Shown: in pieces, positions 36,482-55,480 of the stretch | Layout of the letters: every line of letters starts with the position of its first letter | Numbering within the stretch: position 1 is the stretch's first letter | Assembly (NCBI GenBank): GCA_017624115.1 | Contig: JAGANQ010000093.1 | Span: forward strand, 1-64,000 | Direction of reading: 5' to 3' | Source: Lachnospiraceae bacterium | Lineage (GTDB): Bacteria > Bacillota > Clostridia > Lachnospirales > Lachnospiraceae | Length of the DNA stretch: 64,000 nucleotides | Made by a program: the position numbers and the translations under genes | The notes under the pieces: generated by a model | What the model saw: the letters and a program-made list of their open reading frames with translations, nothing else | What the model was told of the DNA's origin: nothing | Database searches by the model: none

Positions 36482-37057
36482 GGCAGCTGCATTTGGTATA
36501 GCAATAAGCCTGTGATTATTGCTATTATGGAAAGCAGTGAATCTGCATATTTTCAAATATAAGATTTGGAGAGATTGGCACGAAATTTGAGGGTTTCTTA
36601 CATCCGGAGTTTTAGAAAGCAAATTTTGTGTCTTTGATGCAACCGACAAGCCAGGGCAGATGTCCGTTCAGGGAAAGACAGACAATCAAAGTTTCTAGCC
36701 GCTCTAGGGCAGACGCCTCACAAAATCGATATAAAAGCGCGTAAATGCGAACTCGCTCCTAACCATGGTTAATACGATTAGTTTGTGAGCTCAGACACAC
36801 ATTTACGCGCTTACGTTTTGCTCGTCGTCTGCCAAGAGCGGCACGAAACTTTTCTATCATCTGTTCTTTCTCCTGACGGACAGCCTGCCCGCTGGCTTGC
36901 TCGATGCTTCGAAAGACACAAATTATAAAGGCTTTCTAAAACTCGGTGTTAGAAACACCAAATTTCGTGCTTTCTCCAAAGCTATATTTGAAAATATAGC
37001 AGATAAAACTAATTCCTATAATTATCACAACTTATAGATGCTTAAAATGTGACAGCC
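36482..37057 (+). repeat. giant palindromic repeat, copy A
   Basis: Non-coding element filling the gap between gatB and holA. The two halves are imperfect reverse complements over nearly the whole length. Inner core limits are TTTTCAAATATAAG (from 36550) and the matching arm ending at 36994; outer arms extend to GGCAGCTGCA at the left and GACAGCC at the right. Best-paired segments: GCGCGTAAATG (36737-36747) with CATTTACGCGC (36800-36810), GGCAGACG (36708-36715) with CGTCTGCC (36826-36833). Two more copies exist in the window; this one and copy C share orientation. No start codon plus ribosome site supports a gene inside. Confidence 0.88.
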
Positions 37058-37094
37058 TCTTGCTCGATGCTTCGGAATCGAATATCATTCCTTT

Positions 37095-47742: not shown

Positions 47743-48354
47743 TTAATTTGACAGAAACATATCCATATCGTCATCATCATAGGAACCATTTTCATACTCT
47801 CTGGTCCAGTCAATATTATTACTTCTCTTCGGTCTGGCAACAGCTCTTGCAGGCTTGGAATTCTTTCTCTTTTCCTCTTCCTTTTTCTGCATCGCCTTCT
47901 TTTCCTTCTCCAGACGATTGATGATATCAAATTTATCCGGCTGCTGCTCCTTGAAGCGCGCATCCTTATCCTGCGTCTTGCGAGGCTCACTGCGTCTTCT
48001 TGGCTGCTCCTCGTCCTTATCCTTATCCATCACGTAATTATTGTTTCTCGGTCTGTCATTATTATACGGACGATTCGGTCTTCCCTCGCCATTTGCGCTA
48101 TTATATGGGCGTGCCGGTCTTCCCTCGCCATTTCCATTATTATATGGACGTGCCGGTCTTCCTTCACTGTTTCCATTATTATACGGACGCGCCGGTCTTC
48201 CCTCGCTGTTTCTGTTATTATAAGGTCTGCTCTGTCTGTACTCTCCGTTTCCTCTCTCTCTGCTTCTGTCGTCTGTGTTCCGATATTCCCGCTTAACATT
48301 TTCTCTGGAATAATTCTCTCTGCTGCGGCTTCCATCCGCACTACTGGTAGTCAC
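47743..48354 (-). CDS. disordered Arg/Asn/Pro/Tyr repeat protein
   Basis: 203 residues, low complexity, no recognised domain. Part 1 (to about residue 40) is Ser/Arg/Glu-rich (SRENYSREN). Part 2 has about four near-perfect copies of a 13-residue unit, NNGNSEGRPARPY. Part 3 is a charged helix (DIINRLEKEKKAMQKKEEEK), and the tail is DWTREYENGSYDDDDMDMF. Arg/Asn/Tyr-rich repeats with acidic tails suggest RNA binding or condensate formation, an inference only. I prefer the GTG start because GGGAGGAA lies 9 bases before it; an ATG 13 codons upstream lacks a ribosome site. It ends about 120 bases before nadE and has its own terminator. Confidence 0.6.
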   Translation of the reverse strand: MTTSSADGSRSRENYSRENVKREYRNTDDRSRERGNGEYRQSRPYNNRNSEGRPARPYNNGNSEGRPARPYNNGNGEGRPARPYNSANGEGRPNRPYNNDRPRNNNYVMDKDKDEEQPRRRSEPRKTQDKDARFKEQQPDKFDIINRLEKEKKAMQKKEEEKRKNSKPARAVARPKRSNNIDWTREYENGSYDDDDMDMFLSN

Positions 48355-48406
48355 GAATAATTTCCTCCCGATTCTCCCGCCCTCCGGCGTCATATATATC
48401 AGTTTT

Positions 48407-48434
48407 ATTTTATTATATTTTAGAACAAAGTCAA
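48407..48434 (-). promoter_or_regulatory. possible promoter of the repeat-protein gene
   Basis: On the minus strand TTGACT and TAAAAT at 16-bp spacing. Confidence 0.4.
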
Positions 48435-48538
48435 TCATTTTTTTTGTAAAAACTGCGTTTTTTTCTTGCTTTTTCTCTCCTTTACTGATACAGTAAAAGA
48501 GGAATCGTTTTCCAATAACAACACAGAAAGGAATTCTT

Positions 48539-48847
48539 ATGGACGAAAACATGAATGATGCACAGGCAACTGTTACACTTACCCTTGATGACGATACAGA
48601 ATTAGAATGTATAGTACTCACTATCTTCCCTGCAGGGGATAAGGAATATATCGCTCTGCTGCCTATGGACAGCGCTGAGGACGAAGAAGGCGAAGTATAT
48701 CTGTACCGCTACGAAGAAGATGCTGACGGCAATCCAAGTCTCTCCAACATCGAAGATGATGACGAATACGACATCGTTGCCGATGCTTTTGATGAGCTTC
48801 TGGATGAGCAGGAATATGATGAATTGGTTGGAGAGGAAGACCTGTAA
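48539..48847 (+). CDS. DUF1292 family acidic protein
   Basis: 102 residues, very acidic. ATVTLTLDDDTELECIVLTIF and the KEYIALLPMD / EVYLYRYEED strands are the DUF1292 (YrzB-like) pattern common in Firmicutes, usually near Holliday-junction and alanyl-tRNA synthetase genes; that context is not present here. GAAAGGA precedes the ATG. Its TAA stop lies within the terminal arm of palindromic repeat copy B. Confidence 0.85.
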   Translation: MDENMNDAQATVTLTLDDDTELECIVLTIFPAGDKEYIALLPMDSAEDEEGEVYLYRYEEDADGNPSLSNIEDDDEYDIVADAFDELLDEQEYDELVGEEDL

Positions 48848-49350
48848 TTATTATCGTGGAAAATAATTTAGATTTTTCAAAATAAGCTTTGGATGAAGCC
48901 AACAAAATTTGGATTTTCTAAAGCCGGGATTTTGAAAGCCCTTTATAATTTGTGTCTTTCGAAGCATCAAGCAAGCCAACGGGCATGCTGTCCGTCAGGA
49001 GAAAGAACAGACGATAGAAAAGTTTCGTGCCGCTCTTGGCAGACGGCGAGCAAAACGTAAGCGCATAAATGTGTGTTTGAGCTCTCAACCTTATCGCATC
49101 AATACGGTTAAAGCGAGTTCGCATTTATGCGCTTTTATGGCGACTTTGTGAGACGTCTCCCTTAGAGCGGCTAGGAACTTTGATTGTCTGTCTTTCCCTG
49201 AACGGACATCTGCCCTGGCTTGTTGATTGCATCAAAGACACAAAATTTGCTTTCAAAATCCCGGCTAAGAAAATCTCAAATTCCGTGCCAATTCATCCAA
49301 AGCTTATATTTGAAAATGCAGCCTTTTATTTTCCACACCAATAATTATAG
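48842..49350 (-). repeat. giant palindromic repeat, copy B
   Basis: Inverted relative to copies A and C. Long imperfect inverted repeat between two convergent genes. Arms: GCGCATAAATG (49061-49071) with CATTTATGCGC (49122-49132); AAAATAAGCTTTGG near 48890 with the matching CCAAAGCTTATATTTG near 49298. The outermost arms, CTGTAATTATT at the left and its near complement at the right end, contain the TAA stop of the DUF1292 gene and the stop of tdk. Open frames inside lack ribosome sites and follow from the sequence symmetry. Confidence 0.88.
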
Positions 49351-54842: not shown

Positions 54843-54869
54843 AATAAAATTGGTTAAAGCCTGTTAAGA

Positions 54870-55448
54870 GGCTGTTGCACTTGATATAGTTATATGCTGT
54901 GATAATTGCTGCTATGAGAAATGAGAAGCCTGCCTATTTCAAATATATGCTTTGGAGAGATTAGCAAGAAATTTAAGAGTTTCTTACATCCGGAGCTTTG
55001 GAAAGCAAAGTTTGTGTCTTTGATGCAATCGACAAGCCCAGGCAGATGTCCGCTCAGGGAAAAACAGACAATCAAAGTTCCTAGCCGCTCTAAGGCAGGC
55101 AACTCACAAACTCAATATAAAAGCGCATAAATGCGAACTCGCTCTGACTATCCTTAATGTGATAAGGTTGAGAGCTCAGACACACATTTATGCGCTTATG
55201 TTTTGTTCGTTTGCCTGCCAAGAGCGGCACGAAACTTTTCTATCGTCTGTTCTTTCTCCTGACGGACAACCTGCCATGAGGCTTGTTCGATGCTTCGGAA
55301 GACACAAACCATAAAGGCTTTCCAAAGCCCGGTGTTAGAAACACTAAATTTCATGCTTACTCCAAAGCTATATTTGAAAATATTGCAGATAATACACTTC
55401 TTGTAACAGCAATTATCATAACTTACGCATTGAAAAAATGCAACAGCC
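54870..55448 (+). repeat. giant palindromic repeat, copy C
   Basis: Same orientation as copy A. The outermost arms are perfect: GGCTGTTGCA (54870-54879) and TGCAACAGCC (55439-55448). Inner pairs: GCGCATAAATG (55123-55133) with CATTTATGCGC (55185-55195), and GGCAGGCAA (55094-55102) with TTGCCTGCC (55211-55219). It fills the gap between the convergent ECF S-component and GlgX-like genes. Short open frames in both strands have no ribosome sites and I do not call them. Confidence 0.9.
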
Positions 55449-55480
55449 ACTTTTATGGTAAGATACTTTTTCTACGCTAC

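Follow-up and report, generated by a model that had tools for sequence, protein, structure and literature searches.

A long palindrome in the window, the 64,000-nucleotide stretch of Lachnospiraceae DNA analyzed here, is best explained as one copy of a dispersed, non-autonomous and probably mobile palindromic element whose folded form is under selection, a reading to which we assign a probability of roughly 0.55. The copy would form a hairpin over its full length. The initial annotation had described compensated base-pair changes between the palindrome's arms at 36708-36833, comparing three copies (A, B and C); this interval is only the inner portion of an imperfect palindrome of approximately 580 nt (Table 1). 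All the bases it named in the three copies are exact at their positions, and the arms fold as it described: in predicted RNA folds each copy is one long hairpin, with an energy 17-21 standard deviations below those of shuffled sequence (z of -17.4 for A, -20.6 for B and -18.6 for C). No listed ORF of at least 100 aa lies inside A or C.

Table 1. Copies of the palindromic element in the window and features of copy A
Feature	Position in window	Strand	Description
Copy A	36482-37059 (nhmmer 36482-37058)	+	Flanked by gatB (+, ends 36434) and holA (-, ends 37095), which converge on it
Copy B	48844-49348 (nhmmer 48837-49350)	- (inverted)	Outer stem diverged, pairing kept
Site of copy B			Spans the interval from the stop codon of a + ORF (48539-48847) to that of thymidine kinase (-, ends 49345)
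Copy C	54868-55450 (nhmmer 54869-55449)	+	Flanked by the converging genes for an ECF-type transporter S component (+) and a GlgX-like protein (-)
Inner core of copy A	36691-36849	+	Conserved across six genera (models R1/R2)
Left conserved motif, copy A	36692-36706	+	TTTCTAG-CCGC-TCTA; TA 36696-36697 unpaired in every copy
Right conserved motif, copy A	36834-36848	+	AAGA-GCGG-CACGAAA; AC 36843-36844 faces the left TA
First compensated pair	36741 (left) / 36806 (right)	+	G/C in A; A/T in B and C
Second compensated pair	36713 (left) / 36828 (right)	+	A/T in A; G/C in C

The genome to which the window belongs (G000) is a 2.0-Mb MAG that is 76% complete, with the window on contig C34. It contains 17 full or near-full copies, of which one lacks its apex and one is truncated at the right. 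A further 12 partial copies sit at contig ends, and some of these may be the two halves of a single copy; at least four shorter deletion derivatives are also present (63, 69 and 137 bp, plus one of approximately 100 bp). Full copies are single continuous hairpins of 501-588 nt once an insert is removed, and the inverted-repeat ends of well-kept copies read GAGGCTGTYGCATTTKG. An insert of approximately 72 nt (TATTGTTCCGATTGC...GTGCTACTAT) is common to L051, L052 and L053 (on C68, C59 and C56), at the same position in the left arm; it is itself hairpin-prone and has no counterpart in the right arm. In some copies, clearly so in L006, L009 and L012, pairing runs past the family ends into locus-specific flanks, in L012 as far as two similar inverted terminators. 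An unbiased 176-kb sample of the genome contained zero copies, so the copies are unevenly distributed. In this assembly, breaks are caused in large part by the element, as 12 contigs end within a copy (C3, C10, C25, C31, C33, C41, C44, C46, C56, C61, C83 and C88).

Following the suggestion of the initial annotation, covariation was tested across many copies and several genomes with our own scripts and a pair-count tool, and the arms do vary together with pairing kept, well above the phylogenetic null. Within the genome, a strand-symmetric consensus of 228 pairs was derived from 15 full copies and compared with 500 simulations that preserve the tree and each column's number of changes; parsimony was used, and the tree ignores recombination among copies. 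Pairing is kept through double changes at 65 of the 228 pairs (null 25.0±3.6), and 138 cells carry such a change (null 34±6). Paired cells make up 93.0% against 86.5±0.6% in the null, a percentage favored by taking the structure from the same copies, a dependence from which the cross-genus data below are free. Approximately 61-67 double changes could be assigned to single branches; they are mostly transitions. An ordinary MITE whose terminal inverted repeats are very long, and in which shared ancestry of the copies gives the appearance of covariation, would account for the dispersed copies, the inverted-repeat ends, the short deletion derivatives and the direct repeats that flank some copies. 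It is nevertheless very improbable, as the tree-based null never exceeded 35 double-changed pairs in its 500 runs and covariation persists across genera around fixed loops.

A different source of co-varying arms would be mutational: gene conversion between arms, the alternative raised by the initial annotation, or template switching during replication could maintain complementarity without selection. Compensatory changes in hairpins have been reported to arise by template switching (PMC8794818), and such a process would be expected to yield symmetry between G.T and A.C mismatches, as described below. One copy (L053) indeed carries approximately 20 nt of right-arm type within its left arm, with the loss of two fixed internal loops, and is the sole clear copying tract among the scorable copies. 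Since it is confined to one copy, conversion is not the general cause. Homogenization would, moreover, wipe out the differences between arms, yet all of these are kept: an ATT bulge in 16/16 aligned copies, T.T mismatches in 16/16 and 17/17, single-base bulges A in 18/18 and T in 19/19, a C/TCT loop in 19/19 and a TA/AC loop in 18/18, some of them across genera. Apart from the apex, unpaired columns of the stem are invariant as often as paired ones (65% each). Finally, double changes fall into 61 runs, 57 of which consist of one isolated pair, whereas the one visible conversion spans approximately 20 nt and erases bulges. Arm-to-arm conversion is therefore not the main cause of the co-varying arms, and a purely mutational origin of the complementarity appears quite unlikely. 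The outer arms, which have no fixed asymmetries, could still owe their complementarity to template switching; in one related genome (G091) they are nearly perfect complements, yet unlike from copy to copy. As fixed bulges mark every arm, the element offers a natural test of selection versus template switching in the upkeep of long stems.

Relatives of the element were sought in other genomes. Searches by blastn of 61 relatives and of 397 genomes sampled from the family gave, outside G000, only matches of chance length; neither an exact 20-mer of the element in 84,980 species genomes nor a 21-mer in viral contigs was found. A covariance model of the inner 158 nt (R1) matched in three of 396 other family-sample genomes, namely G326 (5 copies), G111 (20) and G081 (18), with best E-values of 1e-13 to 1e-16, all of them missed by blastn. 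A second model (R2), built solely from these three genomes with G000 left out, recovered G000 at an E-value of about 1e-24 and added G091 (at least 5 copies, 1e-10) and, more weakly, G147 (at least 6 copies, 3e-5). Sequence search fails for these relatives and covariance models succeed. Carriers amount to six of 334 genera sampled, multi-copy in each; an order-level sample of 392 genomes added no genus, and the one other same-genus genome examined (G001) has no copy by blastn or covariance model. No match above the gathering score was found in Rfam for the window or the relatives.

Full hairpins in G326 and G081 are approximately 600-640 nt long, and those of G111 mostly approximately 240 nt. 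In 43 sense-strand rows the genera share a core, with TTTYTAG-NNNN-TCTA as its left part and AAGA-NNNN-CACRAAA as its right, in which the NNNN differs between genera, and from copy to copy in G081 and G111, with complementarity kept. Across genera 93.3% of cells are paired, and double changes occur at 34 of 39 pairs, against 5-15 for slid versions, in an alignment that is fitted to the model and includes 13 antisense G000 rows. Over the outer 60 bases in all six genera, the two arms of one copy match more closely than do left and right arms taken from different copies, a comparison that is approximate as end offsets differ among copies. Covariation within G000 and across genera supports the view of the initial annotation that a hairpin, of RNA or DNA, is selected; compensating stem changes and the retention of specific unpaired bases, seen in one genome and in four genera, point to purifying selection on the folded form. 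The conserved internal loops may be contacted by a protein, probably the one that mobilizes the element. In G111, loci L142-L170 combine one core with three outer stems (a GTCGTCC-type, a TTCGGATTTG-type and a CGCTCTGCCTCG-type), as if outer arms had been swapped. In 20 of 299 family genomes, the stem GGCTGTYGCA...TGCRACAGCC occurs in short palindromes whose loops are unrelated, with zero matches for a reversed-pattern control; such palindromes may be terminators, or different elements that share these ends.

Mismatches within the stems bear on which nucleic acid folds. If RNA from a single strand were under selection, G.U should be better tolerated than A.C. Among new single changes from Watson-Crick pairs in G000, G.U arises 61 times on the plus strand and 56 times on the minus strand. 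When arms are simply aligned to each other across the six genera, 415 G.T and 370 A.C mismatches are counted (p 0.12). A G.T excess is seen only in G081 (161 versus 112, p 0.004), as expected of an RNA. With the two mismatches about equally tolerated, selection on one RNA strand is little indicated, and the pattern leans towards a DNA hairpin or cruciform, or RNA from both strands, as the likelier selected fold.

A rival explanation is a functional RNA, a putatively transcribed long structured RNA that would serve, for example, as bidirectional terminator and mRNA 3′-end protector between convergent genes. Its stems covary around conserved loops as is typical for structured RNA, copies A, B and C have strong predicted RNA folds, and the ends GGCTGTYGCA...TGCRACAGCC recur in the family as short palindromes. 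The placement of copies is also suggestive: 14 of the 17 full-size copies in G000 lie between convergent genes, three between codirectional and none between divergent ones, and nearly all contig-end pieces face the 3′ end of a gene. By a crude count convergent pairs make up 18 of 179 neighboring gene pairs (approximately 10%), so convergent sites are strongly enriched. In G111, however, the share is 5 of 12 copies, and in G081 and G326 every gene orientation occurs, divergent pairs included, which weakens a terminator-only reading. Neither a sigma-70-like promoter nor a classical terminator was found in copy A, G.T is not generally in excess of A.C, and the window's other convergent sites carry ordinary terminators of approximately 30 bp, for which purpose 580 nt would be unnecessary. 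Relative to codirectional genes, the element runs in the same direction in about 15 cases and in the opposite direction in 7 by hand count, a difference that is not significant. A functional RNA is, on balance, rather unlikely. The convergent bias is better explained as a trait of some hosts, through tolerance of insertion, than by a fixed terminator role. Copies of the mobile element that we favor last in G000 almost only at gene 3′ ends, mostly those of convergent genes, and there they may also halt transcription from both directions.

Several observations indicate that the element has spread through the genome. Copies occupy many loci with unrelated flanks, and in G001 the site orthologous to that of copy C is empty, with only short ordinary sequence. 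Two short forms of 63-69 bp (L047, C12:18844-18912; L048, C36:9240-9302) have an identical junction at an ATAGC repeat and are for this reason read as deletion derivatives; the alternative of insertion into the tip of existing short palindromes was dropped on the same evidence. The shared junction of these two loci looks as though the short form had moved itself. Perfect direct repeats flank two G081 copies (8 bp, CAATTTGC, at L143; 9 bp, CTATATCAA, at L163), and over 54 copies direct repeats at the ends are near the cross-locus control and not significant overall.

Active transposition would probably depend on a protein supplied from elsewhere. No transposase linked to the element and no autonomous copy was seen, and among the end-motif matches in the 76%-complete G000 there is no IS-like pair of ends. 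One candidate partner was the Y1 transposase (PF01797), which occurs in G326, G091 and G147, as well as in 18 of the 34 genomes used for comparison. It is absent from G081 (99% complete, 18 copies), G111 (100%, 20 copies) and G000 (76%), and Y1/RAYT was rejected as partner since it is missing from the essentially complete, multi-copy G081 and G111.

The element works like a REPIN or a MITE, and it is not a REPIN by test and a MITE only in part. REPINs, doublets of REP sequences moved by RAYT, a Y1 transposase, are likewise non-autonomous, dispersed and extragenic, with a hairpin as the replicating unit, and compensatory stem changes have been reported in them (PMC3116915). REPINs are, however, about 100 nt or less, whereas the element measures approximately 580-640 nt in G000, G081 and G326; it also forms a single continuous hairpin instead of two short inverted REP hairpins, and its core motif differs. 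Length, hairpin architecture and the lack of Y1 in G081 and G111 speak against identity with REPINs. Prokaryotic MITEs have inverted-repeat ends, no gene, many intergenic copies, deletion variants and transcripts predicted to fold (PMC10969869). Terminal inverted repeats, a lack of coding capacity, many intergenic copies and deletion variants are shared by the element. In contrast to MITEs, it is palindromic over its whole length, with conserved unpaired bases and cross-genus stem covariation. Target duplications appear mostly absent, L143 and L163 being the only convincing cases, and no parental insertion sequence was seen among the end-motif matches in the 76%-complete G000.

Two further systems show partial likeness. 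Integron attC sites are reported (PMC2727003, PMC6393395) to be recognized in the form of folded ssDNA, with extrahelical bases and little conservation of stem sequence. On that description, the element resembles them in having unpaired bases in a weakly conserved stem; unlike them, it has no cassette array, is dispersed between housekeeping genes, is several times longer and has a different core. Large structured bacterial RNAs in Rfam also have covarying stems around fixed loops, but the element differs in its lack of an Rfam match, of a promoter-like site in A and of more than a weak G.U preference, if any. The literature searched, largely outside subscription journals, contained nothing matching the element, which is weak evidence of novelty. 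Apparently, this is an undescribed family of long palindromic hairpin elements in six genera, in which folding is selected.

A more specific and tentative version, which we consider doubtful as it stands, is a selfish element whose replicating or transposing form would be a giant ssDNA hairpin. Its enzyme would read the fixed bulges of the core, leaving the copy-specific tetrad (NNNN) and the outer stems free to change if paired. Should the folded form be DNA, a previously unknown hairpin-recognizing mobilization enzyme would be implied.

Two other features of the window may be recorded. A 39-bp tandem repeat at 48057-48251 lies inside a minus-strand ORF (47743-48621) that has no NCBIfam match, and the AddA encoded in the window matches the Gram-positive model.
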